From Rhodopseudomonas sp. (GTDB lineage Bacteria; Pseudomonadota; Alphaproteobacteria; Rhizobiales; Xanthobacteraceae), in assembly GCF_013377015.1 (NCBI RefSeq), contig NZ_JACABA010000002.1, forward strand, positions 1,083,691-1,147,690: DNA of 64,000 bases, written 5' to 3'. Of this stretch, positions 29,634 to 51,647 are shown in pieces. Under the pieces are notes generated by a model. That model saw nothing but the letters and a program-made list of their open reading frames with translations. It was not told the origin of the DNA and made no database searches. Every line of letters starts with the position of its first letter. Position 1 is the stretch's first letter. Made by a program: the position numbers and the translations under genes.

Positions 29634-29638
29634 AGGTC

Positions 29639-34571: not shown

Positions 34572-34985
34572 ATGGCCGAACCCGCCCGCGCCAAGCCGAA
34601 ACCGACGCCGGAGACGCAGCATTTCTGGGACGGCACCCGCGCCGGCGAATTGCGGCTGCAGCGCTGCGACGACTGCGCCCATGTGTACTTTCCACCGCGG
34701 CCGTTCTGTCCGTCCTGCGGCTGCCGCAAGGTCAGCGTGTTCAAGGCCTCCGGCAAGGCGAAGCTCTACAGCTACGTCATCAATCACCGTCCCGCCGCGC
34801 CCGGCTTCACGCCGCCTTACGCCATCGCGGTGGTCGAGCTCGACGAAGGGCCGCGGATGATGAGCAACATCCTGGATTGCCCGCAGACCCCGGAGGCGCT
34901 CGAACTCGACATGAAGCTGGAAGTGGCGTTCGAACAGCTTGACGACGCCATCACCCTTCCCCAGTTCCGTCCGGCGAAGGGTTAG
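34572..34985 (+). CDS. DUF35 Zn-ribbon/OB-fold acyl-CoA-associated protein
   Basis: 137 residues from ATG 34572. An N-terminal helix (TPETQHFWDGTRAGELRLQR), a four-Cys rubredoxin-like zinc ribbon (CDDCAHVYFPPRPFCPSCGC) and an OB fold (SYVINHRPAAPGFTPPYAIA, then VELDEGPRMMSNILDC). DUF35 proteins act as partners of thiolase-like enzymes, and here the thiolase-like gene starts 4 nt later. In steroid degraders such a partner (the DUF35 part of ChsH2) is needed by the Ltp2 retro-aldolase. First gene of the plus-strand catabolic operon. Confidence 0.88.
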   Translation: MAEPARAKPKPTPETQHFWDGTRAGELRLQRCDDCAHVYFPPRPFCPSCGCRKVSVFKASGKAKLYSYVINHRPAAPGFTPPYAIAVVELDEGPRMMSNILDCPQTPEALELDMKLEVAFEQLDDAITLPQFRPAKG

Positions 34986-34989
34986 TCTG

Positions 34990-36129: not shown

Positions 36130-36130
36130 C

Positions 36131-36295: not shown

Positions 36296-37213
36296 ATGAC
36301 CACCAAATCACTCGACGGCAAAGTCATCGTCGTCACCGGCGCCGGGCGCGGCATCGGTCGTGAGATCGCGCTGCTGGCAGCTGCCGAAGGCGCCAAGGTC
36401 GTGGTCAACGATCCCGGCGTCGCCGCCGACGGCTCCGGCACCGACGCGGCGCCCGCCGACGAGGTGGTGGAAGAGATCAAGAAGCGCGGCGGCACCGCGG
36501 TGGCCAATTTCGAGACCGTGGCCGAAGCCGTTCCGGCGAGCAAAATCATCAAGATGGCGGTCGACACCTATGGCAAGCTCGACGCCGTGGTCAACAATGC
36601 CGGCATCCTGCGCGACGCCATCTTCCACCGCATGAGCATCGACGCCTTCGAGCAGGTCATCAAGGTGCACCTGATGGGCTCGTTCTACACCTCGCATGCC
36701 GCGGCGCGGCTGTTCCGCGAGCAGGAGAGCGGCAGCTTCGTGCACTTCACCTCGACCTCGGGGTTGATCGGAAATTTCGGCCAGGCCAATTACGCCGCCG
36801 CCAAGCTCGGCATCGTCGGGCTGTCGAAATCGATCGCGCTCGATATGGAGCGCTTCAACGTCCGCTCCAACTGCGTGTCGCCGTTCGCCTGGAGCCGGCT
36901 GATCGGCACGATTCCGACCGAGACCGACGAGGAGAAGGCGCGGGTCAAGAAGATCCAGCAGATGGGGCCGGAGAAGATCGCGCCGCTGTCGGTGTTCCTG
37001 CTCAGCGACGCAGCGAAGGACGTCACCGGCCAGATCTTCGCGGTGCGGATGAACGAGATCTTCCTGATGAGCCAGTCGCGTCCGATCCGCTCGATCCATC
37101 GCTCCGAAGGCTGGACCTGCCAGTCGCTGGCCGAACACGGCATGCCGGCGCTGAAGTCGTCGTTCTACAAACTCGACCGCTCCGCCGACATCTTCAATTG
37201 GGATGCGATCTGA
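36296..37213 (+). CDS. Short-chain dehydrogenase, multifunctional-enzyme/HSD17B4-like
   Basis: 305 residues. NAD-binding VTGAGRGIGREIALLAAAEG at the N-terminus, NNAGILRD, and the catalytic Ser/Tyr/Lys in FTSTSGLIGNFGQANYAAAK. The segment VVVNDPGVAADGSGTDAAPA between strands 2 and 3 resembles the (3R)-hydroxyacyl-CoA dehydrogenase domain of peroxisomal multifunctional enzyme 2. The C-terminal 40 residues extend past a typical 250-residue SDR. Likely oxidises a 3-hydroxyacyl-CoA in this operon. It is preceded by GGGAGGGAAT at good spacing. Confidence 0.88.
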   Translation: MTTKSLDGKVIVVTGAGRGIGREIALLAAAEGAKVVVNDPGVAADGSGTDAAPADEVVEEIKKRGGTAVANFETVAEAVPASKIIKMAVDTYGKLDAVVNNAGILRDAIFHRMSIDAFEQVIKVHLMGSFYTSHAAARLFREQESGSFVHFTSTSGLIGNFGQANYAAAKLGIVGLSKSIALDMERFNVRSNCVSPFAWSRLIGTIPTETDEEKARVKKIQQMGPEKIAPLSVFLLSDAAKDVTGQIFAVRMNEIFLMSQSRPIRSIHRSEGWTCQSLAEHGMPALKSSFYKLDRSADIFNWDAI

Positions 37214-37282: not shown

Positions 37283-38503
37283 ATGCGAATGAGATTCTCG
37301 ATTCTTGTGCTGGCCGTGGTGATGGCCGGCGCCGCCCCGTTCGCATCCTCGGCCGCCGAGAAGAAATACGGCCCCGGTGTCACCGATACCGAAATCAAGA
37401 TCGGTCAGACGATGGCCTATAGCGGCCCGGCGTCGGCCTACGGCACCGTCGGCCGGCTGGAAACCGCCTATTTCGAAATGATCAATTCGCAAGGCGGGGT
37501 GAACGGCCGCAAGATCACGCTGATCAGCCTCGACGATTCCTACAGCCCGCCGAAGACGGTGGAACAGACTCGCCGGCTGGTGGAACAGGATGAGGTGCTG
37601 GCGATCGTCGGACAGCTCGGCACCCTGACCGCCTCGGCCGTGCAGAAATATCTTAATATCAAGAAAGTCCCGCAGATCCTGATCACCTCGGGGGCCGCCA
37701 AATGGGACAATCCGACGGCGTTTCCCTATTCCACCTACCTGTATTCGCCTTACCATCTGGAGGGGCAGATCTTCGCCAAGTATCTGCTGAAGAACAAGCC
37801 GGACGCCAAGCTCGGCGTGTTCTCGCAGAACGACGATGCGGGCCGAGACTATGTCCGCGGGCTGAAGGATGGTCTCGGCGACAAGGTCGCGACGATGATC
37901 GTCAAGGAACTGACCTACGAGACCACCGAATCGCTGATCGATTCGCAGATCGTGACGCTGAAATCCACCGGCGCCGATACGCTGTTCATGATGACCACGC
38001 CGAAATTCGGGGCGCAGGCGATCCGCAAGATCGCCGAATTGGGCTGGAAGCCGCTGACCTACCTGTCGGCGGTGTCGTCGTCGATCAAGACGGTGCTGGA
38101 GCCCGCCGGCGTGGAGAACGCCAAGGGATTGATCACCGCGCTCGCCGTCAAACGGCCGGAAGATCCGAGGTGGGAGAACGAGAAAGACGTCCTGGACTAC
38201 AAGGCCTTTCTCAAGCAGTGGTACCCGGCGGGGAACCTGACCGACAGCAGCAACATTGCCGGATACATGGCGGCCTATGTAGCGGTGAAGATTCTCGAAC
38301 GCTGCGGCGACGAACTCACGCGGGAGAATGTGCTGAAACAGGCGACGAACCTGACCGCGCTTCCGGCGCCGCTGCTGTTGCCGGGCATCACCATCACCAC
38401 GACGCCCACCCGGTATACGCCGTTCAGTCAGATGCAGATCGCGCGCTTCAACGGCACCACCTGGGAGCCCGAAGGCGCGCTGATCAACGCGATCGAGCCG
38501 TAA
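37283..38503 (+). CDS. ABC transporter substrate-binding protein 1 (LivK-like)
   Basis: 406 residues. Signal peptide MRMRFSILVLAVVMAGAAPF with cleavage near SSAAE. Type 1 periplasmic binding fold of the Leu/Ile/Val family: GVTDTEIKIGQTMAYSGPAS, NGRKITLISLDDSYSPPKTV, LAIVGQLGTLTASAVQKYLN and FSQNDDAGRDYVRGLKDGLG. Such receptors in catabolic operons often bind aromatic or other hydrophobic acids. It is one of two receptors here for a single downstream ABC transporter (41146-44429). GGGAGCGAAAC precedes the ATG. Confidence 0.9.
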   Translation: MRMRFSILVLAVVMAGAAPFASSAAEKKYGPGVTDTEIKIGQTMAYSGPASAYGTVGRLETAYFEMINSQGGVNGRKITLISLDDSYSPPKTVEQTRRLVEQDEVLAIVGQLGTLTASAVQKYLNIKKVPQILITSGAAKWDNPTAFPYSTYLYSPYHLEGQIFAKYLLKNKPDAKLGVFSQNDDAGRDYVRGLKDGLGDKVATMIVKELTYETTESLIDSQIVTLKSTGADTLFMMTTPKFGAQAIRKIAELGWKPLTYLSAVSSSIKTVLEPAGVENAKGLITALAVKRPEDPRWENEKDVLDYKAFLKQWYPAGNLTDSSNIAGYMAAYVAVKILERCGDELTRENVLKQATNLTALPAPLLLPGITITTTPTRYTPFSQMQIARFNGTTWEPEGALINAIEP

Positions 38504-38535
38504 CACCGAAACCTGCCGCCGCGAGGGAAGCAACA

Positions 38536-39720
38536 ATGAGCATGGATGTACGGGTGGTCGGCGTCGGCATGGTGCCGTTCGCCAAGCCGGGTGCAAGCGA
38601 AAGCTATATCGAGATGGGGTCCAAAGCGGTGGCGGCGGCTCTGGCCGACGCCGGCTTGCCCTATTCGGCGATCCAGCAAGCCTATGCGGGTTACGTGTAC
38701 GGCGATTCGACCTGCGGGCAGGCCGTGCTCTATCCCGCCGGCTTGACCGGAATCCCGATCGTCAACGTCAACAACAACTGCTCGACCGGATCGACGGCGC
38801 TGTTCCTGGCCCGCCAGGCGGTCGCCAGCGGGCAGATCGACTGCGCGCTCGCGGTCGGCTTCGAGGAAATGCGGCCCGGCGCGCTCGGCTCGAATTTCCC
38901 CGACCGGGTTGGTCCGATGGCCCGGCATGCCGGGCTGATGGGGGAATTGCAGACACACGATCCGAAGGCGCCGCGCGCGGCGCAGTTCTTCGGCGGCGCC
39001 GGCGCCGAATATGCCGCGAAGTACGGGGCAAGTCCGGAAACCTTCGCCAAGATCTCCGTCAAGGCGCGCGTGCACGCCGCCAACAATCCCTTTGCGCTGT
39101 TCCGCAATCTGCTGTCGGTCGAGGAGGTGCTGGCCTCGCCGCCGCAATACGGCCCGATGACCCGCTATCAATGCTGCCCGCCGACCTGCGGCGCCGCCGC
39201 CGCGATCGTCTGTTCGCCGGCATTCGCCGCACGCCACGGTCTCGACGGATCGATCGCCATCAAGGCCCAGGCGATGACCTCCGATACCGCCAGCACGTTC
39301 GACGATCGCTCGATGATCAAGCTGATCGGCTACGACATGGCCAAGGATGCCGCCGCCGCGGTTTATGAATCCGCGGGCCTTGGCCCGGAGGACATCCAGG
39401 TGGCCGAGTTGCACGATTGCTTCACCGCCAACGAATTGCTGACCTATGAGGCGATCGGCCTGACCCCGGAAGGAACCGCCGAGAAGTTCATCATGGACGG
39501 CGATAATACCTACGGCGGGAAAATCGTCACCAACCCTTCGGGCGGGTTGCTGTCGAAGGGGCATCCGCTCGGGGCCACCGGTCTCGCGCAATGCACGGAG
39601 CTGGTCTGGCAATTGCGCGGCACGGCCGATCGCCGGCAGGTGCCGAACGTCACGCACGCGCTGCAACACAACCTCGGGTTGGGCGGGGCCTGCGTGGTGA
39701 CGCTGTACGGCAGGGTCTGA
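38536..39720 (+). CDS. SCP-X-type thiolase 1
   Basis: 394 residues from ATG 38536. The catalytic Cys is intact in IVNVNNNCSTGSTALFLARQ, the His block reads SKGHPLGATGLAQC and the C-terminus HALQHNLGLGGACVVTLY. Thiolases of the sterol-carrier-protein-X type cut 3-oxoacyl-CoAs, often branched or sterol-like. The protein is clearly a paralogue of the thiolase at 48122-49306 (same length, and the segments VYGDSTCGQ and TGIPIVNVNNNCSTGSTALF are shared). It follows the receptor gene by 32 nt. Confidence 0.9.
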   Translation: MSMDVRVVGVGMVPFAKPGASESYIEMGSKAVAAALADAGLPYSAIQQAYAGYVYGDSTCGQAVLYPAGLTGIPIVNVNNNCSTGSTALFLARQAVASGQIDCALAVGFEEMRPGALGSNFPDRVGPMARHAGLMGELQTHDPKAPRAAQFFGGAGAEYAAKYGASPETFAKISVKARVHAANNPFALFRNLLSVEEVLASPPQYGPMTRYQCCPPTCGAAAAIVCSPAFAARHGLDGSIAIKAQAMTSDTASTFDDRSMIKLIGYDMAKDAAAAVYESAGLGPEDIQVAELHDCFTANELLTYEAIGLTPEGTAEKFIMDGDNTYGGKIVTNPSGGLLSKGHPLGATGLAQCTELVWQLRGTADRRQVPNVTHALQHNLGLGGACVVTLYGRV

Positions 39721-39891: not shown

Positions 39892-41136
39892 ATGGCCATC
39901 AATCGGAGAACATTCGGAATCGGTGCGTCCGGCGTGCTGCTGGGATCGATTGCCGCGCCGTTCATCGGCCGTGCCGGCGCCGCCGGGCCCACCATCCGTG
40001 TCGGCGTCGTCAATTCCATGAGCGGCGGGCTCGCCGCCTATGCGCAGGAAGGGCAGCCGGCGTTCGAATACATCATCAAGAAGATCAACGCCGAGGGCGG
40101 CATCAAGAGCAAGGGCGGCGCCCAGATCGAGCTGGTGATGGCCGACGACACCAGCCAGCCGGCGCGCACTGCCGCCGAGGCGCGGCGGTTGATCACCGAA
40201 GAAAAAGTCCAGTTGCTCACCGGCACCATACTCAGCGCGCAGATGCTGGCGCTGACGCCGGTGCTCGACGAATTGAAGATGCCGACGCTGTCGGTGTGGG
40301 CCGGCGGCGCGCGCTCCGACTACATGTTCACGCTGGGTTACCCGTACGATCGTGGCTACGCCCAGACCATCAACGACTTCATCGTCGCGCTACGCGACGA
40401 GCACAAATTCAAGATCAAGACCGCGGTGATGGGCTATTCGAATTACGAAGCCGGCCAGCAGGTCAACAAGTTCCTGACCGAGAAGCTGAAGGCCAGCGGC
40501 GTCGAGATCATCGGCGAGGCCGCGCTCGACATCCGCGCGCAGGACCAGACTTCTGCGATGGTCCGGATCCGTTCGCTCAAGCCCGACGTGGTGGCCGGAC
40601 TGGTGACGCCGCGCGACGGCATCCTGCTGCATCAGGCCCGTTACAACCTGAACTACCACGACAGCCTGTTCTGCGGCGGCACCGGCGGCTACACCGATCT
40701 GTCGCTGTGGAAGGACCTCGGTCCCGAGGTCGGCAAGGCGGTGCTGACCAAGAACCTATTCGGCATGACCGGCTTCAGCCCCGGTGCCAAGGTGGATTCG
40801 ATGCAGAAGATCATCGCCGAATTGCGCGACATCGCCAAGCTCGACCGCATCGGGCAGGGCGCGATCCAGTACGCGCAGGCCGCGCGCGTGTTGCAGCAGG
40901 TGCTGGAAAACGCCGCGTCGCTGCAGAGCGACGACCTGCTCAAGGCGTTCCGCAGCGTCAACATTCCGTTCGGCGATCCGAACCTCTACGTCGCCAAGCC
41001 GAAGGGCCTGCAGTTCGCCGAGGACCGCCTGCTGAAGGACGGTTCGGCGATGTTCGTGCAGTGGACTCCGGAGCAGGACCAGCAGGTCGTGTTCCCGAAG
41101 GAATTCGCGCAAGTGCCGCCGCGGCCCCGCGCCTAG
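39892..41136 (+). CDS. ABC transporter substrate-binding protein 2 (LivK-like, probable Tat substrate)
   Basis: 414 residues from ATG 39892 (GGGAGAGACGAC upstream). The N-terminus MAINRRTFGIGASGVLLGS has a twin-arginine pattern with a mild hydrophobic core and a likely cleavage after GRAGA. Type 1 binding fold: IRVGVVNSMSGGLAAYAQEG, IELVMADDTSQPARTAAEAR, QLLTGTILSAQMLALTPVLD and TAVMGYSNYEAGQQVNKFLT. It is adjacent to the ATPase gene (9 nt), so it is the more likely cognate receptor. Only remote similarity to receptor 1. Confidence 0.9.
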   Translation: MAINRRTFGIGASGVLLGSIAAPFIGRAGAAGPTIRVGVVNSMSGGLAAYAQEGQPAFEYIIKKINAEGGIKSKGGAQIELVMADDTSQPARTAAEARRLITEEKVQLLTGTILSAQMLALTPVLDELKMPTLSVWAGGARSDYMFTLGYPYDRGYAQTINDFIVALRDEHKFKIKTAVMGYSNYEAGQQVNKFLTEKLKASGVEIIGEAALDIRAQDQTSAMVRIRSLKPDVVAGLVTPRDGILLHQARYNLNYHDSLFCGGTGGYTDLSLWKDLGPEVGKAVLTKNLFGMTGFSPGAKVDSMQKIIAELRDIAKLDRIGQGAIQYAQAARVLQQVLENAASLQSDDLLKAFRSVNIPFGDPNLYVAKPKGLQFAEDRLLKDGSAMFVQWTPEQDQQVVFPKEFAQVPPRPRA

Positions 41137-41145: not shown

Positions 41146-41865
41146 ATGACGTTCCTGACGGTCGACAACGTCACCAAACGCTTCGGCGGGCTGGTCGCGC
41201 TCAACGCGATCGGCTTCTCGGTCGCGCAAGGCGAGATCGTCGGCATCATCGGGCCGAACGGCGCCGGCAAGACCACGCTGTTCGGCGTGATCTCCGGCTT
41301 CATCACGCCGAGCGAGGGCGAGGTGTCTTACGACGGCCACAGCATCCTCGGCATTTCGCCGGATCGCCTGGTATGGCGCGGCCTGATGCGCAGCTTCCAG
41401 ATCGTGCAGTCGTTCGCCGACATGACGGCGCTCGACGTAGTGACGACGGCGGCCTTGACGCGGCGGCCGATGCGCGAGGCGATCGACTACGCGGCCGCAG
41501 CGCTGCTGCGCGTCGGCCTCGGCGGCAAGGAACTGAAGATGCCGCTGACGCTGTCGCTGCAGGACAAGAAGTTGCTCGAACTCGCCAAATGCATCGCCAC
41601 CGATCCGCGATGCATCCTGCTCGACGAGGTGATGGCCGGCCTGACCATGTCGGAGACGGCGGCGCCGATCGCGGTGATCCAGGAACTGAACCGGCAGGGC
41701 GTTACCATCGTGATGGTCGAGCACGTGATGCCGGTGATCATGCGGCTGGCGACCCGGATCGTGGTGATCAATTTCGGCGAGAAGATCGCCGAAGGCACGC
41801 CCGAGGAGATCCTCAAGGATCAGCGCGTGATCGACGCCTATTTCGGGGATCATATCGATGCTTGA
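41146..41865 (+). CDS. LivG-type ABC ATPase
   Basis: 239 residues. Walker A GPNGAGKTT, Walker B CILLDEVMAGL and H-loop VMVEHVMPV. The expected LSGGQ signature is replaced by LTLSLQDKKLLELAKCIATD, a degenerate form seen in some Liv-type ATPases and worth noting because the partner ATPase has a canonical LSGGEQQ. Energises import of the substrate bound by the receptors upstream. The stop overlaps the next ATG by 8 nt. Confidence 0.9.
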   Translation: MTFLTVDNVTKRFGGLVALNAIGFSVAQGEIVGIIGPNGAGKTTLFGVISGFITPSEGEVSYDGHSILGISPDRLVWRGLMRSFQIVQSFADMTALDVVTTAALTRRPMREAIDYAAAALLRVGLGGKELKMPLTLSLQDKKLLELAKCIATDPRCILLDEVMAGLTMSETAAPIAVIQELNRQGVTIVMVEHVMPVIMRLATRIVVINFGEKIAEGTPEEILKDQRVIDAYFGDHIDA

Positions 41866-42562
41866 GATCGAGGGCCTGACGGCGGGCTACGGCGGCATCG
41901 AGGTGCTGCGCGACATCAACGTCCGGCTCGGCGACGGCGAACTGGTCGGCCTGCTGGGCGCCAACAATGCCGGCAAGACCACGATGATCAACAGCCTGTC
42001 CGGCACGGTGAAGCCGATGGCCGGCCGCATCCTGTTCCAGGGCGAGGACATCACCCGTCTGACGCCGCGGCAGCGCGTCGAGCGCGGCATCGTCCAGGTC
42101 CCGGAAGGCAGGCTGGTGTTTCCCGAGATGAGCATCCGCGAAAACCTTTTGCTCGGCGGCATCAACAGCCGGGCGCGGCCGCAGCGCCGGCAGCAGATGG
42201 AGAAGGTGCTGGAGCTGTTCCCGCGGCTTGGCGAGCGGCTGGCGCAGCACGCCGGCTCGCTCTCCGGAGGCGAACAGCAGATGCTGGCGATCGGCCGCGG
42301 GCTGATGGCGGACGCGAAGGTGCTGATGCTCGACGAGCCGTCGCTCGGGCTGTCGCCGCTGTTCGTGCAGTACATCTTCGAGATCATCGACAAATTGCAC
42401 GCCGACGGACTGACCATCCTGCTGGTCGAACAGAACCTGAATTTGACGTTGCGTCATGCCCAGCGCTGTTACGTGCTGGAGCGCGGGCAGGTCGCGGTGG
42501 AAGGGGGCGCGGATGCGGTCAGAAACGATCCTCGCACCAAGAGTGCCTATCTTGGCCTGTGA
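41858..42562 (+). CDS. LivF-type ABC ATPase
   Basis: 234 residues. Walker A GANNAGKTT (Asn in place of the usual Gly), signature SLSGGEQQMLAIGRGLMAD, Walker B VLMLDEPSLGLSP and H-loop LLVEQNLN. Second ATPase of the transporter, overlapping the first gene by 8 nt and followed after 26 nt by the permease gene. Confidence 0.9.
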   Translation: MLEIEGLTAGYGGIEVLRDINVRLGDGELVGLLGANNAGKTTMINSLSGTVKPMAGRILFQGEDITRLTPRQRVERGIVQVPEGRLVFPEMSIRENLLLGGINSRARPQRRQQMEKVLELFPRLGERLAQHAGSLSGGEQQMLAIGRGLMADAKVLMLDEPSLGLSPLFVQYIFEIIDKLHADGLTILLVEQNLNLTLRHAQRCYVLERGQVAVEGGADAVRNDPRTKSAYLGL

Positions 42563-42588: not shown

Positions 42589-43455
42589 GTGACTGAACTC
42601 TATCAGGCTCTGGCGCAGGGCCTGCTGATCGGCAGCACCTACGGGCTGCTGGCGCTCGGTATGGGCCTGGTTTACGGCGTCAGCGGCGTCGTCAATTTCT
42701 CCCACGGCGACTTCATCTCGCTCGGCATGTTCATGTGCCTGGGGCTGTATTCGGCTCTGTCGCTCGACCCCTATGTGTCGGTGATCATCACGGTTCCGGT
42801 GATGACGGCGATCGGCGCGCTGGTCTATCTGTTCCTGATCAGGCCGATGGTCGGGCACCAGTTCCTGATGGTGGTGCAGCTGACGCTGGGTCTCAGCCTG
42901 GTGCTGCAGAACGGCATCCTGATGGTGTTCGGCGGCCAGCCGGCGCGGACGCCGTCGATCGTCGAATCCAAACTGTGGATTCTCGGCGACGTGGTGCTAC
43001 GCGTGCCGCATGTGATCGCCTTCGTGATTTCCTTCGCGCTGGCGATCGGTCTCTACGTGATGCTGCGCTCGACCGATTTCGGCCGGTCGATTCGTGCCGT
43101 GCACCAGAACGCCCATGCGGCGGCGCTGATGGGCATCGACGTCGGCCGCGTCCAGGTGCTGACCTTCGCGCTCGGCATCGGCATTCTGGCGCTGGCCGCG
43201 GCGCTGCTGCTGCCGGGCACGCCGATCCAGCCGACCCAGGGATTGCGCTACACCGTCATCACCCTGCTGGTCGTGGTGCTTGGCGGCATGACCAATTTCG
43301 TCGGCATCATGCTGGGCGGGCTGATCATCGGCATCGCCGAAGCCTTCGGCACCATCTATCTCGACGGCGCGATCGGCCTGCTGATGCCCTACATCATCTT
43401 CGTGGCGATCATGCTGTTCCGGCCGCAGGGCCTGACCTGGAGGTCGTCGAAATGA
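42589..43455 (+). CDS. LivH-type ABC permease
   Basis: 288 residues, eight or so membrane segments. LIGSTYGLLALGMGLVYGVS followed by VVNFSHGDFISLGMF is the conserved N-terminal LivH pattern, and RSIRAVHQNAHAAALMGID is the cytoplasmic ATPase-contact loop. An ATGA overlap at 43452 couples it to the LivM gene. Compare the couS product, which has the same fold but a different sequence. Confidence 0.92.
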   Translation: MTELYQALAQGLLIGSTYGLLALGMGLVYGVSGVVNFSHGDFISLGMFMCLGLYSALSLDPYVSVIITVPVMTAIGALVYLFLIRPMVGHQFLMVVQLTLGLSLVLQNGILMVFGGQPARTPSIVESKLWILGDVVLRVPHVIAFVISFALAIGLYVMLRSTDFGRSIRAVHQNAHAAALMGIDVGRVQVLTFALGIGILALAAALLLPGTPIQPTQGLRYTVITLLVVVLGGMTNFVGIMLGGLIIGIAEAFGTIYLDGAIGLLMPYIIFVAIMLFRPQGLTWRSSK

Positions 43456-44429
43456 AGCAGGAATTCTACGACACGCTGTCGTCGCCGATCCTGTGGGGCG
43501 TGCTGCTGCTCGCGGCGCTGCTGCCCTTCGCGTTGTCGAGCTACTATCTACACATCGTGACGCTGGCGCTGGTCTATGTCGCGCTGGCGTCGTCGTGGAA
43601 CATCGTCGGCGGCATGGCCGGGCAGGTGTCGTTGGCGCACAGCCTGTTCATCGGCATCGGCGCGATGCTGTCGAGCGCGCTGCTGCTCAAGCTCGGCATC
43701 AATATGTGGCTGGGGCTGGTGATCTCAGCAGTGATCTCCGGCGTCCTCGGCGCCATGATCGCCTGGATCGATTTCCGCTTTCAGCTCGGCCATCTTTCCT
43801 TCGTACTGATCACGCTGGCCTTCGCCGAGATGGGTGCGATCGTGGTCGAGGGCTGGGAATTTCTCGGTGGCGCGTCTGGCATGCTGCTGCCCAAGGACAC
43901 CGGTGATTTCCTCGCCTTTCAGTTCGGCGGCGGCAGTGGCTCGTTCTGGGTGATGCTGACGCTGGCCGCGGTCTGCGTCCTGGTCAATGTCGCGATCCTC
44001 AATGCGCCGCTCGGCTTCTATCTGCGCACCATCCGCGACAACGAGAAGGCGGCGCAGGCGATCGGCGTCAACGTGCTGCGCTACAAGATCACCGCGATGG
44101 TGATCTCGGCCGTGCTCGCCTCGGTGGTCGGCACCGCCTACGTTCGCTATCTGACCTTCGCCGATCCCTATCTGCTGATTTCTCCGGTCATCACCATCGA
44201 GATCGTGCTGTTCGCGACCGTCGGCGGGCTCGGTCGGGCCTACGGCCCCGCGCTCGGCGCGCTGCTGCTGGTGCCGCTCGGCGAAGTGCTGCGAGGCAAG
44301 CTCGGCAGCGCGCTGCCCGGGCTGCATTATTTCATCTACGGTGTGGTGGTGATCGCTGTCATCCTGGCGACGCCGCGCGGACTGCTGCCGCTGTTCGAGC
44401 GGCAATGGGAACGCTGGCGCCGCTCGTAG
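43452..44429 (+). CDS. LivM-type ABC permease
   Basis: 325 residues. SSWNIVGGMAGQVSLAHSLF is the conserved LivM motif, and FYLRTIRDNEKAAQAIGVNV is the ATPase-contact loop. About ten membrane segments. Last gene of the plus-strand operon starting at 34572; its stop is 10 nt from the stop of the crotonase on the other strand, so transcription converges here. Confidence 0.92.
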   Translation: MKQEFYDTLSSPILWGVLLLAALLPFALSSYYLHIVTLALVYVALASSWNIVGGMAGQVSLAHSLFIGIGAMLSSALLLKLGINMWLGLVISAVISGVLGAMIAWIDFRFQLGHLSFVLITLAFAEMGAIVVEGWEFLGGASGMLLPKDTGDFLAFQFGGGSGSFWVMLTLAAVCVLVNVAILNAPLGFYLRTIRDNEKAAQAIGVNVLRYKITAMVISAVLASVVGTAYVRYLTFADPYLLISPVITIEIVLFATVGGLGRAYGPALGALLLVPLGEVLRGKLGSALPGLHYFIYGVVVIAVILATPRGLLPLFERQWERWRRS

Positions 44430-44438: not shown

Positions 44439-45215
44439 TCAGCGGCCGGTGAAGCGGGCCGGGCGCTTCTGCACGAAGGCAGCGGCGCCCTCGCGCAGAT
44501 CCTCGGTCACGAAGGCGCGCGCCTGCGACGACGCCTCGCCGTCGAGCGTCGTGGCCAGCGGCGCCGCCCAGGCGGATTCGATCTGTCCCTTGATCAGGCC
44601 GATGCTGAGCGGCGGACCGTCGGCCAGGCGTTGGGCTGCGGCCAAAGCGGTGTCGAACAGCTCCGCATCCTCCACCATCTTCCAGATCAAGCCCCATTCT
44701 TCTGCCTTCTCGGCGGCCAGGGGTTCGCCGAGCAGCGCCAGCGCGCGGGCGCGGGGGACGCCGATCGCGCGCTGCAGGAACAATGACGTCCCGGCATCGA
44801 GCGCGGCGCCGAGCCGGACGAAGCTGAGGATGAAGCGCGCCGAGCGCGCGGCGATCACGACATCGCCGGCCAGCGCGATGCCGACGCCGGCGCCGGCGGC
44901 CGGACCGTTGACGGCGACGACGATCGGCTTCGGCGCGGCGCGCATCTTCTCGAGCAGCGGGTTGAGCCGGCCGCGCATCATCGTCGCGACCTGCTCGCCG
45001 GCGTCGAAGGTGGCGCCGCCGAGCTGCGCGCCGGAGCAAAACCCCTTGCCGGCGCCGGTGAGCACGATCGACCGCACCGCCGGCTCGGCGAGAGCCGCGT
45101 CGAGCGCTGCACCGAGATCGGCCAGCAGGCTGCCGCCGAGCGCGTTGTATTGCTCCGGATTGTTCAGCGTCAGGATCGCCACGGCGCCGCGCCGCTCGTT
45201 CAGAACCATCGACAT
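44439..45215 (-). CDS. Enoyl-CoA hydratase/isomerase (crotonase family)
   Basis: 258 residues from ATG 45215, GGAGCACCAC upstream; the frame is open to 45428 but that part overlaps the acyl-CoA dehydrogenase. Crotonase motifs: AILTLNNPEQYNALGGSLLA, GAGKGFCSGAQLGG and NGPAAGAGVGIALAGDVVIA. In the first catalytic loop GAGVGIA lacks the usual Glu, and FVRLGAALDAGTSLFLQR also lacks the second one, so it is perhaps an isomerase (PaaG-like) rather than a hydratase. The dehydration step may then fall to the MaoC pair. Last gene of the minus-strand operon. Confidence 0.87.
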   Translation of the reverse strand: MSMVLNERRGAVAILTLNNPEQYNALGGSLLADLGAALDAALAEPAVRSIVLTGAGKGFCSGAQLGGATFDAGEQVATMMRGRLNPLLEKMRAAPKPIVVAVNGPAAGAGVGIALAGDVVIAARSARFILSFVRLGAALDAGTSLFLQRAIGVPRARALALLGEPLAAEKAEEWGLIWKMVEDAELFDTALAAAQRLADGPPLSIGLIKGQIESAWAAPLATTLDGEASSQARAFVTEDLREGAAAFVQKRPARFTGR

Positions 45216-45253: not shown

Positions 45254-46399
45254 CTACAGCGACCGTGCGATCAGCAGCTTCATGATCTCGTTGGTGCCGC
45301 CGTAGATCTTCTGGATCCGCGCATCGACGTACATCCGCGAGATCGGGTATTCCTGCATGTAGCCGTAACCGCCGTGCAATTGCAGGCATTCGTCGACGGT
45401 CTCGACCTGCTTCTGTGTAGTCCACCACTTCGCCATCGAGGCGGTGACGGCGTCGAGGTCGCCGGCCAGCAGCCGCTCGAGGCAGAAGTCGACGAACACC
45501 CGCGCGATCATCGCCTCGGTCTTGCGCTCGGCGAGCTTGAAGGCGGTGTTCTGGAATTCGATGATCGGTTGGCCGAACGCCTTGCGTTCTTTGGTATAGT
45601 CGACCGTTAGCCGAACCGCGCGCTCCATCGCCGCTACGGCGCCGATCGCAATGATCAGCCGCTCCTGCGGCAATTGCTGCATCAGCTGGGCGAAGCCCTT
45701 GCCTTCCTCGCCGCCGAGCAGGTTTTCAGGCGGCGCCACCGCGTCCTCGAAGAACAATTCCGAAGTGTCCGACGCCGGCAGGCCGATCTTGTCGAGGTTG
45801 CGGCCGCGCTTGAAGCCGGCATTGCCCTCGGTCTCCAGCACGATCAGCGACAGGCCCTTGGCGCCGGGGCCGCCGGTGCGGGCGACGACGATGATCAGGT
45901 CAGCGGTCTGGCCGTTGGTGATGAAGGTCTTCTGGCCGTTGATGACATAGGCGTTTCCTTGCAGCCGCGCCGTGGTCCGCACGCCCTGCAGATCCGATCC
46001 GGTCCCCGGCTCGGTCATCGCGATCGCGCCGATCAATTCGCCGCGCGCCATGCCCGGCAGCCAGCGCTTCTTTTGTTCCTCGGAGCCGTAGTTCAGAATG
46101 TAATGCGCGACGATGCCGCTGCTGACGGTGACGCCGCCGAGCGCGTCGGGCACCTCGCTCTCCATTTCCTCGAACACCGCGGCGTCATAGGCGAAGGTGG
46201 CGCCGAGCCCGCCATAGGCTTCCGGAATGCTCGGCAGCAGCGCGCCCATCTTGCCGAGCGCCAGCCAGGCCGAGCGGTCCACCATCTTCTGCGCCCGCCA
46301 CTTTTCGGCGTGCGGCGCCAGGTCCTTGGCGAGGAATTTCCGAAATTGATCGCGGAACGAATCCAGTTCCTCGGTCATCCATGACGATCGATATTGCAT
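45254..46399 (-). CDS. Acyl-CoA dehydrogenase (LCAD/IVD-like)
   Basis: 381 residues. FAD enzyme forming the 2,3-double bond of an acyl-CoA. Signatures AMTEPGTGSDLQGVRTTARL and KTFITNGQTADLIIVVART, and the C-terminal QLHGGYGYMQEYPISRMYVD then IQKIYGGTNEIMK. The MCAD-type catalytic Glu (YEGT) is Gly here (YGGT), and a Glu is found instead in the helix-G position (AIGAVAAMERAVRLTVDYTK), as in long-chain and isovaleryl-CoA dehydrogenases. That points to long or branched substrates. Alternative start at M8. Confidence 0.92.
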   Translation of the reverse strand: MQYRSSWMTEELDSFRDQFRKFLAKDLAPHAEKWRAQKMVDRSAWLALGKMGALLPSIPEAYGGLGATFAYDAAVFEEMESEVPDALGGVTVSSGIVAHYILNYGSEEQKKRWLPGMARGELIGAIAMTEPGTGSDLQGVRTTARLQGNAYVINGQKTFITNGQTADLIIVVARTGGPGAKGLSLIVLETEGNAGFKRGRNLDKIGLPASDTSELFFEDAVAPPENLLGGEEGKGFAQLMQQLPQERLIIAIGAVAAMERAVRLTVDYTKERKAFGQPIIEFQNTAFKLAERKTEAMIARVFVDFCLERLLAGDLDAVTASMAKWWTTQKQVETVDECLQLHGGYGYMQEYPISRMYVDARIQKIYGGTNEIMKLLIARSL

Positions 46400-46410: not shown

Positions 46411-47238
46411 TTAAATGATGAGGCCGCCGCCGCAGACGACCACCTGCCCGCTAATGTAGTTCGATTCCGGGCTGCAAAACAGATAAACCGCGTCGGCGGC
46501 TTCTTCCGGCGTGCCGCCGCGTCCGAGCGGAATCATCCTCGCCATGGCGTCGAGCATCTGCGGCTGGACGCCGACCTTGATGTCGCGGCCGGCGACGTCG
46601 ATGGTGGTCTGCTGCGCCTCGATCGGCTGGGTCAGCCGGGTGTTGATCAGCCCGAACGCCACGCAATTGACGTTGACCTTGTAGCGGCCCCATTCCTTGC
46701 ACAGCGTCCGCGTCAAGCCGATCAGCGATGCCTTGGCGGAAGAATAGCTGGCCTGTCCGGCGTTGCCGTAGAGCCCGGCGATCGACGAGATGTTGACCAC
46801 CTTGCGGAACACCTCCTGGCCGGCTTCGGCTTCCTTCTTCGCCAGAATCCGGATCGGTTCGGCGGCGGCGCGCAGCACCCGAAACGGCGCCACCAGATGG
46901 ACGTCGAGCATCGCCTGGAACTGCTCGTCGGTCATCTTCTGGATCGTCGAATCCCAAGTGTAGCCGGCATTGTTGACGATGATGTCGATGCCGCCGAAGG
47001 TCTCCATCGCGGCGCCGACAAAGCGGTCGGCGAAGCCGGGCTCCGAGACGCTGCCATTGATGGCGATCGCCTCGCCGCCCGCCGCCTTGATCTCGGCGGC
47101 GACCGCGTCGCCCGGCGCGGCATCGAGATCGTTGACCACGACCTTGGCGCCCTCGCGCGCCAGCTTCAGCGCGATGGCACGGCCGATGCCGCGGCCCGAC
47201 CCGGTGATCAGCGCGACTTTTCCTTGCAGTTTCGACAT
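46411..47238 (-). CDS. Short-chain dehydrogenase (FabG/3-hydroxyacyl-CoA dehydrogenase-like)
   Basis: 275 residues from ATG 47238. VALITGSGRGIGRAIALKLA, NNAGYTWDSTIQKMTDEQFQ, catalytic Ser/Tyr/Lys in NISSIAGLYGNAGQASYSSA with the following Lys, and the C-terminal SGQVVVCGGGLII. An insertion between the Tyr region and the C-terminus (QPIEAQQTTIDVAGRDIKVG) is longer than in FabG. It probably oxidises the 3-hydroxyacyl-CoA made by the MaoC-type hydratases encoded next to it. Between hydratase and dehydrogenase genes in a single operon. Confidence 0.9.
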   Translation of the reverse strand: MSKLQGKVALITGSGRGIGRAIALKLAREGAKVVVNDLDAAPGDAVAAEIKAAGGEAIAINGSVSEPGFADRFVGAAMETFGGIDIIVNNAGYTWDSTIQKMTDEQFQAMLDVHLVAPFRVLRAAAEPIRILAKKEAEAGQEVFRKVVNISSIAGLYGNAGQASYSSAKASLIGLTRTLCKEWGRYKVNVNCVAFGLINTRLTQPIEAQQTTIDVAGRDIKVGVQPQMLDAMARMIPLGRGGTPEEAADAVYLFCSPESNYISGQVVVCGGGLII

Positions 47239-47252: not shown

Positions 47253-47660
47253 CTATAGGGCGATGATGGCTTCGCCGGCGAGCTTGGTCTCGCCGTGCTG
47301 GTCCTTGGTGGTGAGCGCGATTCTGGCGCGGCGTTCGCCTCCGGTCTCGAGCAGCTCCGCGATATGGCCCTCGCAGGTCAATTGCGCGCCGAGCTGGGTG
47401 ATGGCGGCGAAGCGCGTCGAGAACGAGCGGATCTTCCCAGGTGCCACCGCGTCGGTCAGCGCCTGGCCGAGATAGCCCATCACCAGCATGCCGTGCGAGA
47501 ACACGTCGGGAAATCCCGATGCTTTGGCGAAATCGATATCGACATGGATCGGGTTGTGATCGCCCGAGGCGCCGCAATACAGCGCTAGCGTGTGGCGGGT
47601 GATGGCGGGGAATTCCTTGTGGACGATGCGGTCGCCGACCGCGGGGGCCGTCTTGCTCAT
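47253..47660 (-). CDS. MaoC-like enoyl-CoA hydratase subunit (hydratase-2 motif)
   Basis: 135 residues. Hotdog fold with the hydratase-2 motif YCGASGDHNPIHVD containing the catalytic Asp/His pair, and FSHGMLVMGYLGQALTD. Hydrates enoyl-CoA, giving the (R)-3-hydroxy isomer in family members. Its start overlaps the stop of the second MaoC-like gene by 4 nt; such pairs commonly form a heterodimer, with this one as the catalytic half. Compare ChsH1/ChsH2 of steroid side-chain degradation and HadAB. Confidence 0.88.
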   Translation of the reverse strand: MSKTAPAVGDRIVHKEFPAITRHTLALYCGASGDHNPIHVDIDFAKASGFPDVFSHGMLVMGYLGQALTDAVAPGKIRSFSTRFAAITQLGAQLTCEGHIAELLETGGERRARIALTTKDQHGETKLAGEAIIAL

Positions 47661-48112
47661 GAGCTGGCTCCATTCCGCACCACGATGGTGCGGGCGACGT
47701 CGGCGACGTGGACGCCATTCTGGTTGGTGACCTCGGTCTCGACCACGATCAGCGTCATGGCGCCGCCCTTCTTGTCGGTGACGCTGGTGACCCGCGGGCT
47801 GAAGGTGACGGTGTCACCGACCACGACCGGCGCGTGATAGGCAAAGCTCTGCTCGCCATGCAGCACCTTGCCGAGATCGATGTCGAGCGCGGTGAGGAAT
47901 TCGAACGGCGTCTCGGAGTCCATCAGTTCGAGGCAGAACAGATAGGTCGGCGGGATCGGGATCGCCGTAAAGCCCGCGGCCTTCGCCGCCGCGGCGTCGC
48001 GATAGACCGGGTTGCTCTCGCCCAGCGTTTCAAAGAAATAGCGCAGTCGTCCCGGCTCGACATGCGCGGTGACCGGCGTAAAGCGACGCCCGACGGCGGA
48101 TTGATCGACCAT
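47657..48112 (-). CDS. MaoC-like N-terminal-type (FAS1_DH) hydratase partner
   Basis: 151 residues. The N-terminal dehydratase pattern: VEPGRLRYFFETLGESNPVY, then FTAIPIPPTYLFCLELMDSE, and SFAYHAPVVVGDTVTFSPRV. It lacks the Asp/His hydratase motif of its neighbour, which suggests a structural or substrate-binding half of a heterodimer. 4-nt overlap (ATGA type) with the catalytic subunit gene. Confidence 0.87.
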   Translation of the reverse strand: MVDQSAVGRRFTPVTAHVEPGRLRYFFETLGESNPVYRDAAAAKAAGFTAIPIPPTYLFCLELMDSETPFEFLTALDIDLGKVLHGEQSFAYHAPVVVGDTVTFSPRVTSVTDKKGGAMTLIVVETEVTNQNGVHVADVARTIVVRNGASS

Positions 48113-48121: not shown

Positions 48122-49306
48122 TTACGCGCGCTCGTACAGGGTCACCACGCAGGCGCCGCCGAGGCCGAGATTGTGTTGCAGCCCGAGCCGCGCGCCGTCG
48201 ACCTGGGTCGCCGCCGCGGTGCCGCGCAATTGCCGGGTCAGCTCGTAGCATTGCGCGAGGCCGGTGGCGCCGAGCGGGTGACCCTTCGACAGCAGTCCGC
48301 CCGACGGGTTGGTGACGAACTTGCCGCCATAGGTGTTGTCGCCGGCGTCGATGAATTTCTCCGCGCCGCCGTCGGGGCATAGGCCCAGCGCTTCGTAGGT
48401 GATCAACTCGTTCTGCGCGAAGCAGTCGTGCAGTTCGACCACGTCGAGATCATCGGGGCCGACGCCGGCCTTCTCATAGACGGCGTTGGCGGCGGCCCGC
48501 GCCATGTCGAAGCCGACCACCTGCATCATGTCGTGGGCGCCGAAAGTCGACGGGGTGTCGGTGGTCATGCTCTGCGCGGCGATCCGCACATCGGTGCGCA
48601 GGCCGTGCTGCTTGGCGAATTTCTCCGAAACCAGCACCGCGGCGGCGCCGCCGCAGGTCGGCGGACAGGCCATCAGCCGGGTCATCACGCCAGGCCAGAT
48701 CACCTGATCGTTCATGACGTCGTCGGCGGAGACCTCCTTGCGGAACAGCGCGAGCGGATTATTCTTGGCGTGGCGGCTGGCCTTGGCGCGGATCTTGGCG
48801 AAGGACGACAACGGCGTGCCGTATTTCTTCATGTGGCTGAGGCCGGCACCGCCGAAATAACGCAGCGCCAGCGGTACCCCCGGCGCATCGACCAATTGAT
48901 CGGCCGCGGCATCGAACTCGTCGAACGCGCTGGGCCGGTCGGTGTAGACCGAACCGAGCGCGCCGGGCTTCATCTGCTCGAAGCCGAGCGCCAGCACGCA
49001 ATCGGCGGCGCCGGATTCGATCGCCTGGCGGGCGAGGAACAGCGCGGTCGAGCCGGTCGAGCAGTTGTTGTTGACGTTGACGATCGGGATTCCGGTCATG
49101 CCGACCGGGTACAGCGCGCGCTGACCGCAGGTCGAGTCGCCGTAGACGTAGCCGACATAGGCCTGCTGGATCAGACCGTAGTCGAGGCCGGCATCCGCGA
49201 GCGCCAATTTCGTCGCCGTTGCGCCCATCACATGATACGGCTCGTTGGCGCCGGGTTTGACGAATGGGATCATGCCGACACCGGCAACATAGGCGCGAGA
49301 TGGCAT
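48122..49306 (-). CDS. SCP-X-type thiolase 2
   Basis: 394 residues. Catalytic Cys in VNVNNNCSTGSTALFLARQA, His in SKGHPLGATGLAQCYELTRQ, C-terminus QHNLGLGGACVVTLYERA. Paralogue of thiolase 1 (38536). First gene of the minus-strand operon, GGAGG 5 nt before the ATG, and the tetR operator lies just upstream (49341-49354), so it should be under direct TetR control. Cleaves the final 3-oxoacyl-CoA in the inferred spiral. Confidence 0.92.
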   Translation of the reverse strand: MPSRAYVAGVGMIPFVKPGANEPYHVMGATATKLALADAGLDYGLIQQAYVGYVYGDSTCGQRALYPVGMTGIPIVNVNNNCSTGSTALFLARQAIESGAADCVLALGFEQMKPGALGSVYTDRPSAFDEFDAAADQLVDAPGVPLALRYFGGAGLSHMKKYGTPLSSFAKIRAKASRHAKNNPLALFRKEVSADDVMNDQVIWPGVMTRLMACPPTCGGAAAVLVSEKFAKQHGLRTDVRIAAQSMTTDTPSTFGAHDMMQVVGFDMARAAANAVYEKAGVGPDDLDVVELHDCFAQNELITYEALGLCPDGGAEKFIDAGDNTYGGKFVTNPSGGLLSKGHPLGATGLAQCYELTRQLRGTAAATQVDGARLGLQHNLGLGGACVVTLYERA

Positions 49307-49340
49307 CCAATCCTCCGTAAATTACCCAATGGACTTTTTG

Positions 49341-49354
49341 TTACCCATGGGTAA
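49341..49354. promoter_or_regulatory. Operator-like palindrome between thiolase 2 and tetR
   Basis: TTACCCATGGGTAA, a perfect 14-bp palindrome in the 53-nt divergent gap. A second half-site (TTACCCAAT) lies at 49322-49330. Most likely the binding site of the adjacent TetR-type regulator. Confidence 0.65.
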
Positions 49355-49359
49355 TATAC

Positions 49360-50094
49360 GTGGCCAAATCCCGAGTCAATGCGACGCCGCCGGAATTCGA
49401 AATGGACGCCCAGTCGCCAGACGACTCGCCCTGGATGCCGTTCGAAAATCGCCGCCGCGCCCGCGACGAGAAGCGCGAGGCGGTGCTGCGCACCGCCGTG
49501 CATCTGTTTCTCGAGCAGGGCTATCACCGCGCCACGCTGAACGACGTCGCCGAGCGGCTCAACATCACCAAGCCGGCGCTGTACAACTACTTCCGCGGCA
49601 AGGAAGAAATCCTGTTCGAATGCTGCCTGCTGGGGCAGGAGCGGGTCGACGAGGTGATCGCCGAGATCGATGCCGGCGGCGGCACGGGGATAGCGAAGCT
49701 GCGCAAGCTGATCCAAGCCTATGCGGAAGTGATGACGACGGATTACGGCGCCAGTCTGATCCGGTTCGACACCCGCGATCTGTCCGACCGCAACAGCAAG
49801 ATCCTGCGCGACGCCAAGAAGAGCATCGACAGGACCTTTCGACATTACATCACCGACGGCATTGCGGACGGCTCGATCAAGCCGTGCGACGCCAAGATGG
49901 CGGCGTTTGCCATCGCCGGCTCGCTGAACTGGATCGGTCACTGGTTCCAGCGCGGCGGTGACTTGTCGGCCGAGCAGGTCGCGGAGGAATTTTCGGTACG
50001 GCTGACCGAGGGATTGGCGGCACGGGCCTCACGTAAGACGGCGCCGGCGCCATCAAAGTCAAAAAGCAAACAAACCAGCGGAGGGAAACGATGA
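49360..50094 (+). CDS. TetR-family regulator of the acyl-CoA catabolic locus
   Basis: 244 residues from GTG 49360, or 230 from ATG 49402 (GGAATTCGAA upstream). The GTG lies only 5 nt past the operator palindrome and has no Shine-Dalgarno, so the ATG may be the true start. The HTH is REAVLRTAVHLFLEQGYHRA, TLNDVAERLNITKPALYNYF and RGKEEIL, a typical TetR N-terminus. The C-terminal domain resembles the AcrR/FadR-like set that binds acyl-CoA. The Lys/Ser-rich tail overlaps the ligase start by 4 nt. Likely represses the divergent operon and itself until an acyl-CoA accumulates. Confidence 0.88.
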   Translation: MAKSRVNATPPEFEMDAQSPDDSPWMPFENRRRARDEKREAVLRTAVHLFLEQGYHRATLNDVAERLNITKPALYNYFRGKEEILFECCLLGQERVDEVIAEIDAGGGTGIAKLRKLIQAYAEVMTTDYGASLIRFDTRDLSDRNSKILRDAKKSIDRTFRHYITDGIADGSIKPCDAKMAAFAIAGSLNWIGHWFQRGGDLSAEQVAEEFSVRLTEGLAARASRKTAPAPSKSKSKQTSGGKR

Positions 50095-51647
50095 ACACCA
50101 CCCACGGATTGCGGCGGGCGCTGCAGATCAAGCCCGACGGCCTCGCCACGGTGTATGGCGAGCGGCGACGGAGCTGGCGCGAGGTCGGCGAGCGCGTCGC
50201 GCGGCTTGCCGCCGGGCTGCGCGCGCTCGGCGCCGAGCCCGGCGACCGCGTCGCGGTGCTGTCGCTGAATTCCGATCGCTATCTCGAATTGTTCCTGGCC
50301 ACGGCCTGGGCCGGCACCGTGATCGTGCCACTCAACACCCGATGGAGCCCGCTCGAGAACGAAGACGCGCTGCGCGATTGCCGCGCCAATGTGCTGGTGG
50401 TCGACAAGGCGTTCGCGGCGACCGGCGCCGCGCTGGCGAAGGCGTTGCCCGAATTGAAGCTGGTCTATGCCGATGACGGTGATGTCCCGGATGGCATGGA
50501 AAGCTACGAGGCGCTGATCTCGCGTAGCGAGCCGATCCCCGATGCGATGCGTCAGGCCGCCGATCTCGCCGGCATCTTCTACACCGGCGGTACCACGGGC
50601 CGCTCCAAGGGCGTGATGCTCAGCCACGGCAATTTGATGGCCAACGCGCTGAATGCGCTCGGCGAGGGCCTGTTCCCGGGCACCGCGACCTATCTGCATG
50701 CCGCCCCGATGTTTCACCTCGCCAATGGCGCGGCGATGTATTCGCTGCTGCTCAGCGGCGGCGCCAATGTGATGGTTCAGGCGTTCACGCCGGACGGCGT
50801 GATGGCCGTGGTGCAGAAGGAGCGCGTCACCGACGTGCTGCTGGTCCCGACCATGATCCAGATGCTGGTCGATCATCCAGCGCTCGGCTCCCATGACATG
50901 TCGTCGCTGAAGAACGTCGTCTATGGCGCGTCGCCGATCAGCGAGGCGGTGCTCGACCGCGCCACCAAGGCGCTGCCGAAGGCGCAGTTCACCCAGGCCT
51001 ACGGCATGACCGAATTGTCGCCGATCGCCACGCTGCTGCACTGGAACGAGCACATCGGCGAGGGCCGCGCCAAGGGTCGGCACCGCGCCGCCGGTCGGGC
51101 GACGCTGGGCTGCGAGGTCCGCATCGTCGACGCCGACGACAAGCCGGTCGGCTTTGGCACCGTCGGGGAAATCGTGGTGCGCGGCGACAATGTGATGATG
51201 GGCTACTGGGAGCGGCCGGAAGAGACCGCCCGCGCGGTGATCGACGGCTGGATGCACACCGGCGACGGCGGCTACATGGACGAACACGGCTTCGTATTCG
51301 TCGTCGACCGGGTCAAGGACATGATCATCTCGGGCGGCGAGAACGTGTATTCGGTCGAGGTCGAGAACGCCGTCGCCCAGCATCCGGCGGTGGCGCAATG
51401 CGCCGTGATCGGCATTCCCGACGAGCACTGGGGCGAGCGGGTCCACGCCGTGGTGGTGACGCGGGCCGACGCACAGGTCTCAGCCGCCGAACTGATCGAG
51501 TTCTGCAAGACGCTGATCGCCGGCTACAAATGCCCGCGTAGCGTCGAGGTCAGGGCGAGCCCGCTACCGCTGTCGGGCGCCGGCAAAATTCTCAAGCGCG
51601 AGCTGCGCGCGCCGTTCTGGGACAACCGCGAGCGGCGCGTCAGCTAG
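50091..51647 (+). CDS. AMP-forming fatty acid/aryl acid:CoA ligase
   Basis: 518 residues. P-loop FYTGGTTGRSKGVMLSHGNL, AYGMTELSP, GWMHTGDGGYMDEHGF, VDRVKDMIISGGENVYSVEV and the A10 Lys region LPLSGAGKILKRELR are all intact. Activates the imported acid to its CoA thioester, the first committed step for this locus. Medium-chain or cyclic acid ligases and fadD3-like enzymes share this layout; substrate unknown. ATGA overlap with tetR. Confidence 0.92.
   Translation: MNTTHGLRRALQIKPDGLATVYGERRRSWREVGERVARLAAGLRALGAEPGDRVAVLSLNSDRYLELFLATAWAGTVIVPLNTRWSPLENEDALRDCRANVLVVDKAFAATGAALAKALPELKLVYADDGDVPDGMESYEALISRSEPIPDAMRQAADLAGIFYTGGTTGRSKGVMLSHGNLMANALNALGEGLFPGTATYLHAAPMFHLANGAAMYSLLLSGGANVMVQAFTPDGVMAVVQKERVTDVLLVPTMIQMLVDHPALGSHDMSSLKNVVYGASPISEAVLDRATKALPKAQFTQAYGMTELSPIATLLHWNEHIGEGRAKGRHRAAGRATLGCEVRIVDADDKPVGFGTVGEIVVRGDNVMMGYWERPEETARAVIDGWMHTGDGGYMDEHGFVFVVDRVKDMIISGGENVYSVEVENAVAQHPAVAQCAVIGIPDEHWGERVHAVVVTRADAQVSAAELIEFCKTLIAGYKCPRSVEVRASPLPLSGAGKILKRELRAPFWDNRERRVS

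Follow-up and report, generated by a model that had tools for sequence, protein, structure and literature searches.

A Rhodopseudomonas gene run for predicted acyl-CoA degradation probably comprises three modules that are usually apart in related bacteria

The 64,000-nucleotide stretch of Rhodopseudomonas sp. DNA analyzed here, referred to in the following as the window (assembly GCF_013377015.1, contig NZ_JACABA010000002.1, positions 1,083,691 to 1,147,690), carries at positions 34572–51647 a run of genes, lettered A to S, for predicted uptake and degradation of a carboxylic acid. An initial annotation, made from the sequence alone, had described the run as a single import-activate-degrade locus. 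Comparison with related genomes suggests instead that it very probably consists of three neighbouring gene modules that are usually found apart. Module 1 (A-B-C) encodes a DUF35 protein, a thiolase-like protein and a short-chain dehydrogenase/reductase (SDR); module 2 (D-J) encodes two receptors, an SCP-x thiolase and a Liv-type transporter; and module 3 (K-S) encodes a crotonase, a long-chain acyl-CoA dehydrogenase (LCAD)-like enzyme, an SDR, a MaoC pair, an SCP-x thiolase, a TetR regulator and a ligase. Gene types were called by Pfam and NCBIfam domain searches, which confirmed every type named in the initial parts list. Both SCP-x thiolases exceeded the 436-bit cut-off of model PRK08256. 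The features are as follows:

34572..34985, +, A: DUF35 protein (Zn ribbon and OB fold; PF12172, PF01796), module 1/2; start ATG at 34572 behind AGGGAGAGAA
34990..36129, +, B: thiolase-like partner with YDAF and a Cys aligned with the thiolase nucleophile (PF22691; PDB 4u4e 1e-117, 6ok1 1.2e-49)
36296..37213, +, C: SDR of the MFE-2 (17beta-HSD type 4) kind (PDB 2et6 5.6e-98, 1zbq 4.8e-57)
37283..38503, +, D: periplasmic receptor 1, module 2 (PF13458 3.6e-49)
38533..39720, +, E: SCP-x thiolase 1, module 2, start assigned in this analysis (PRK08256, 664 bits; NNNCSTGS/HDCF/GHPLGATG)
39892..41136, +, F: periplasmic receptor 2, module 2, start assigned in this analysis (PF13458 1.1e-45)
41146..42562, +, G and H: Liv-type ATPases (ABC_tran; LivG/LivF models under their cut-offs)
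42589..44429, +, I and J: Liv-type permeases (PF02653)
44439..45215, -, K: PaaG-like crotonase that lacks the hydratase Glu but has the PaaG-type Asp140 (PDB 4fzw 2e-58)
45254..46399, -, L: LCAD-type acyl-CoA dehydrogenase, catalytic Glu246 (human LCAD, 8w0t: 50% identity across 368 aligned residues)
46411..47238, -, M: SDR, module 3 (PF13561; YSSAK)
47253..47660, -, N: MaoC hydratase subunit with GDHNPIH (PF01575)
47657..48112, -, O: MaoC N-type partner subunit lacking the Asp/His pair (PF13452)
48122..49306, -, P: SCP-x thiolase 2, module 3 (PRK08256, 687 bits; PDB 6hsj 5e-139)
49321..49358, no strand: P/R promoter region, with palindrome TTACCCATGGGTAA at 49341-49354 between -35- and -10-like hexamers
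49402..50094, +, R: TetR regulator, ATG 49402 preferred over GTG 49360 (PF00440, PF17932)
50091..51647, +, S: AMP-forming acyl-CoA ligase, module 3 (PF00501; PRK06187, 508.6 bits, cut-off 476)

Arrangement of the modules in related genomes

In a genome of the same genus (G001), the parts of the run lie at three sites of one contig: A-B-C at 2.38 Mb, D-J at 2.14 Mb and K-S at 3.35 Mb. Window positions 27688-37213 matched the first region, 36275-44422 the second and 44437-51645 the third. The match switches from module 1 to module 2 of G001 at C, which is matched by both G001 regions (L130 and L132). In a further genome, G028, the modules are spread over three contigs, and module 2 lacks C, D and E. 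The J|K join occurred in only one of the four genomes found to have both modules 2 and 3, namely the window's own (G000; the others were G001, G028 and G161, the last a single 7.3-Mb contig); gene F of module 2 was sought in 61 genomes only. A 201-bp sequence spanning the J|K junction was unique in the window's assembly. The C|D join is also present in G161, showing that A-B-C plus D-J can form one unit.

For module 3, P homologues (E ≤ 1e-130) were found in 39 of 296 family genomes, including the window's, and we read the corresponding regions from 21 of the other 38 (19 that were fetched, plus L131 and L134). P, O, N, M and R, each at 40% identity or more, lay within 6.5 kb in all 21 regions; S accompanied them in 17 regions, L in 14, K in 11. 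None of the regions had A, B, F or G near P, and D was there only once, at 54%; the module 3 core thus stands without modules 1 and 2 in every family region read. One region outside this set, L139 of G055 from another family, contains a homologue of P (74%) but neither O nor N. In the G028 region L134, module 3 has no orthologue of L; after K come another dehydrogenase (30%) and a receptor resembling D (54%).

For module 1, a search with B yielded 570 loci encoding relatives, and the statements that follow concern the best 80, whose titles were mostly Bradyrhizobium, with Afipia, Tardiphaga and Rhodopseudomonas in addition. A-B-C was contiguous in 79/80 when copies of C cut by a contig end were counted, or 76/80 when at least half of each gene was required. 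D did not follow C in any of the 72 A-B-C loci with at least 1.5 kb of sequence beyond C. An amidase gene (>65%) was found no more than 800 bp from A in 38 of the 80 loci, and further away in 27. By these sequence comparisons, module 1 is a unit common to a group of related genera. It is not family-wide, since B of at least 89% identity occurred in 7 of 61 genomes sampled at one per genus. In 19 of the 80 loci (e.g., L033, L051 and L103), a further Liv-type transporter, only distantly related (homologues of G, H and I at 28% or more), stands before A on the opposite strand.

The description of the stretch as one block is therefore not borne out, given the three sites in G001, the module 3 core alone in 21/21 regions and the absence of D after A-B-C in 72/72 loci. 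Nor does the stretch represent a single import-activate-degrade locus, because the transporter module is paired in relatives with a ligase, a regulator and a hydratase of its own, which in the window's strain sit at the end of another contig.

The A-B-C repeat and the A-B pair

At its end, that other contig (C30 of the window's assembly) carries crotonase and ligase genes, genes for an IclR regulator and a MaoC hydratase (MaoC'), and then a second A gene (A'). The first four are 87–91% identical to the neighbours of module 2 in G001, their types having been called by Pfam on the G001 genes, and the last 55 bases of A' on C30 are identical to window positions 34582-34636. In G161, IclR and MaoC' genes are followed by two reverse genes and then by A-B-C-D-E-F-G-H-I-J; a second B lies 0.43 Mb away, and the two A-B-C stretches of this genome are 92.7% identical over 2619 bases. 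Module 2 of the window's strain probably also has a second A-B-C copy, of which only the start of A' is visible; to this the end of C30 would add a crotonase, a ligase for the module itself, an IclR regulator and an MFE-2-type hydratase. The position of A' behind module 2 partner genes means that the window contig passes through a repeat, and may join the left flank of one copy to the right flank of the other. On its amidase-A side the window matches module 1, and C and D are natural neighbours. Downstream of C in module 1 of G001, the sequence corresponds, from about 0.9 kb onward, to the start of contig C1, with 70% identity over the first 666 bases and 88% beyond.

Two explanations were considered for the order in the window. 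Either the assembly was joined across the A-B-C repeat, or the amidase-A-B-C-D-J order is real, and recombination between two A-B-C copies connected the left side of module 1 to module 2, leaving the other product on C30 and C1. C would be a plausible site for such an event: G001 has two copies of this SDR (L130, 11029-11940, and L132, 9293-10204), which share 96.6% identity over 925 bases and so point to recent duplication or gene conversion. Module 2 of G001 has C without A and B. However, C30 stops inside the repeat after the 55 window-identical bases, and the assembly contains a single full copy of C, both of which are expected of a collapsed repeat. We regard an assembly join as the more likely explanation, and real recombination as less likely. 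The intergenic sequence between B and C (window 36130-36290) contains an imperfect palindrome of the GGAATGACG/CGTCATTCC type that, by eye, has the look of a dispersed repeat.

A and B, a DUF35 protein and a thiolase-fold protein, resemble the steroid aldolase pairs formed by Ltp2 or Sal with DUF35 proteins, and the initial annotation had proposed a possible retro-aldol step. The aldolase motifs are YDHF in Ltp2 and YDCY in Sal, and CtSal has Gly at the thiolase-nucleophile position (PMC12329534). B retains the Tyr of the YD.F motif, but has Ala in place of His or Cys: YDAF was found in all 88 homologues of at least 80% identity, window copy included (three of 111 loci were excluded from this survey because their alignments were too short). 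All 88 likewise keep the Tyr, two His and the Cys that aligns with the thiolase nucleophile; of 20 more distant homologues, 6 have this Cys. B does not fit the Ltp2/Sal type of aldolase, since YDAF lacks the motif His/Cys and the nucleophile-aligned Cys has not been lost; the retro-aldol step is accordingly doubtful. With YDAF and a kept Cys in one protein, B can be assigned neither as a thiolase nor as an aldolase. A-B also resembles the benzoylsuccinyl-CoA thiolase BbsAB, again a DUF35 and thiolase-fold pair, through weak NCBIfam matches; these reached 33.8 of 250 and 110.4 of 750 bits, far under the equivalog cut-offs. We infer that A and B would act as a pair on a CoA ester.

Enzymes of modules 2 and 3 and their predicted substrate

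Module 3 combines a TetR gene and a ligase with one full beta-oxidation set, and the earlier statement that all steps of the spiral are present holds in that all chemical steps are encoded. The SCP-x catalytic motifs were complete in 22 of 22 regions (21 with P, and L188 with E), with NNNCATGS in three, and the best PDB match of P was an SCP2-thiolase. In L, the equivalent of the catalytic Glu291 of LCAD is kept in 14/14 orthologues of at least 60% identity, and at the same threshold the GDHNPIH hydratase motif of N is kept in 18/18, O being without it. The crotonase K had been noted to lack the catalytic Glu. Indeed, the glutamates that we take to serve hydratase function are absent, and the Asp aligned with that of PaaG, its best PDB match, is kept in all 10 orthologues of at least 60%. 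Of the SDRs and MaoC proteins, C and MaoC' were compared with the PDB. The best matches of C were a (3R)-hydroxyacyl-CoA dehydrogenase (2et6) and 17beta-HSD type 4 (1zbq), which we take to be the same as MFE-2, and MaoC' matched hydratase 2 of the peroxisomal type (7mku, 2.4e-59; 1s9c, 2.4e-55).

An SCP-x thiolase, an MFE-2 dehydrogenase and hydratase 2 make up the peroxisomal set for 2-methyl-branched acids. As the thiolase, the MFE-2-type dehydrogenase and the hydratase 2 on C30 form this set, the best-fitting proposal is that modules 2 and 3 each break down 2-methyl-branched acyl-CoAs in the style of animal peroxisomes; we give it an even chance. From the enzyme types we infer an order of steps: the ligase would form the CoA ester, the LCAD-type dehydrogenase of module 3 would form the 2-enoyl-CoA, a MaoC hydratase and an SDR would yield the 3-oxoacyl-CoA by the MFE-2 route, and the SCP-x thiolase would release propionyl-CoA, with the PaaG-like protein shifting double bonds. 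A more specific version, in which module 2 and its A-B-C copy form a complete, transporter-equipped route for a 2-methyl-branched (isoprenoid-like) acid, with A-B catalyzing an undescribed C–C cleavage or acyl transfer on the branched CoA ester, seems unlikely at present.

Among the closest known systems is peroxisomal branched-chain beta-oxidation (MFE-2, SCPx and the alpha-methylacyl-CoA racemase AMACR), to which P, C and MaoC' are linked by their best PDB matches. It differs in that here the enzymes are separate polypeptides, the Pfam tables of E and P contain no SCP2 domain, a dehydrogenase takes the place of the oxidase, and the stretch has no racemase.

Clusters of the same kind were also found on plasmids of Rhodococcus, Cupriavidus, Variovorax, Caballeronia and Tsukamurella. 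A plasmid survey gave 93 records with a P match, from which 15 SCP-x loci were picked for variety and read; O and N followed the thiolase in 9 of the 15. Two Rhodococcus plasmids (NZ_CP147922 and NZ_CP046101) have the thiolase-O-N-M-L order at 48–68% identity, with TetR and ligase genes nearby; they differ from module 3 in having an added CaiB-family, racemase-type gene and an alpha/beta hydrolase gene, and in lacking K. The CaiB-family protein of Rhodococcus L213, the only one compared with the PDB, best matched the mycobacterial alpha-methylacyl-CoA racemase 1x74 (1e-122). Genes at least 40% identical to it occurred in 5/15 plasmid loci, counting L213 itself, and four others had a CaiB gene at 29–31% only. 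In Acuticoccus (L217), an A-B-like pair stands directly before a racemase-type gene (57%), and in Variovorax paradoxus (L222) a B homologue (42%) lies within the thiolase-O-N-M-L region. In PMC8538451, mcr mutants are cited as having lost growth on methyl-branched isoprenoids, and FadAB was studied on pristane (PMC6850023). For the three modules, the plasmid clusters point to a shared branched-acid theme rather than to a proven substrate. A mobilizable plasmid of Sporosarcina sp. P37, from the Bacillota (NZ_CP018869, 307-11829; L226), carries nearly the whole enzyme list as one cluster: an annotated OB-fold/thiolase pair, a CoA-transferase, a ligase, SCP-x and MaoC genes, an acyl-CoA dehydrogenase and SDRs. 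The thiolase of its pair resembles P (35%) more than B, and its CoA-transferase has only 31% identity to the racemase.

Several observations weigh against a 2-methyl-branched substrate. The position of LCAD Pro132, the proline that gives LCAD its wider cavity, is occupied by Gly, Asn, Thr or Ser in L and its 14 orthologues (15/15), all of which have Pro four residues earlier (Pro84 in L); a single-sequence AlphaFold model of L, with a pLDDT (predicted local distance difference test) of 38.8, was too low in confidence for the helix-E question. The SCP-x thiolases also occur in clusters of the AtuA type, and their presence is thus not enough to define the substrate. In the Rhodococcus loci L213 and L219, the thiolase is nearer to E than to P, and the ligase is only 36–37% identical to S. 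Finally, neither the 21 family regions (within 6.5 kb of P) nor the 80 A-B-C loci contained a racemase-like gene (≥40%), the window's whole genome not having been searched.

The absence of a racemase near the family copies is in line with modules 2 and 3 being paralogous beta-oxidation sets whose substrates (fatty, aryl-alkanoic or cyclic acids) lack an alpha branch, their MFE-2/SCP-x kind reflecting ancestry only. Ligase S exceeds the cut-off of the general long-chain model PRK06187, K is PaaG-like, and PDB look-ups intended to give the ligand class of receptors D and F returned general ligand-binding proteins only. On the other hand, the two SCP-x thiolases and the LCAD-type dehydrogenase speak against it, as does the Rhodococcus racemase, which would be superfluous for a straight-chain substrate, and we consider this explanation less probable than a branched acid, though a serious competitor. 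Degradation of acyclic terpenoids such as citronellol or geranylate by an Atu/Liu-like route was suggested by two roseobacter plasmids (L207 and L208), where P orthologues (73–74%) and an SDR 65% identical to M lie within AtuA/biotin-carboxylase clusters. AtuA, however, had no match in the window's genome (a control with well-known genomes gave 0/14), and was present in 17 of 39 genomes with P versus 99 of 257 without it (Fisher p 0.60, taking both 296-genome sets as the same); the stretch itself also encodes no biotin carboxylase, making this route very unlikely.

Least probable of all, and only a slight chance in our estimate, is degradation of a sterol or bile-acid side chain. The same enzyme kinds would be used (DUF35 pair, MaoC pair and SCP-x thiolases), and human LCAD takes bulky substrates (PMC11153573). 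Against this, the stretch has one dehydrogenase gene (L) rather than the two adjoining genes of the alpha2beta2 enzyme, YDAF replaces YDHF/YDCY, and LCAD Pro132 is kept in 0/15 sequences at the aligned position, the Pro four residues earlier leaving some doubt. A KshA_C search of the strain's own genome, aimed at the ring-degradation oxygenase KshA, gave one partial, borderline match of 21.7 bits (23.3 bits, equal to the cut-off, with its neighbours). Of the enzyme types that the initial annotation had connected with sterol, terpenoid or branched-acid degradation, the branched-acid part is thus retained, while the sterol and AtuA-type terpenoid readings are disfavoured.

The stretch had also been called undescribed-looking. 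A literature search found no characterized locus with this gene set, in agreement with that view, but the term was overstated, considering P in 39/296 genomes, the core in 21/21 regions and the plasmid relatives: the stretch belongs to a widespread, poorly assigned kind of cluster, and adds no new kind of system. If the branched-acid proposal is right, it provides a testable substrate class for the widespread bacterial SCP-x/MaoC/SDR/LCAD clusters and offers a chemistry for the A-B pair common to Bradyrhizobium and relatives; the repeated A-B-C segment, if correctly interpreted, is a warning that the window's assembly may join two loci.

The P/R control region and the right flank

The intergenic region between P and R contains a TTAC-N6-GTAA palindrome, which was found upstream of P in 18 of the 21 family regions as well as in the window. 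The three regions without it are those with a 64% P and no S. These counts are not independent, because the regions are related. In the window, the palindrome gave one match at up to two mismatches versus 0.01 expected. The strict TTGGAC-17-TAAYAT spacing occurs in 14 of 22 regions, not including the window, which reads ATGGAC. Since GTG 49360 lies just after the -10-like box, ATG 49402 is the better start for R. R presumably represses its own promoter region.

To the right of the stretch, window positions 54578-62725 encode an FeoB-like transporter, followed by an activator of the GAF/sigma-54 type and a radical-SAM protein carrying a FeMo-Co domain, a setting like that of nitrogen-fixation regions.

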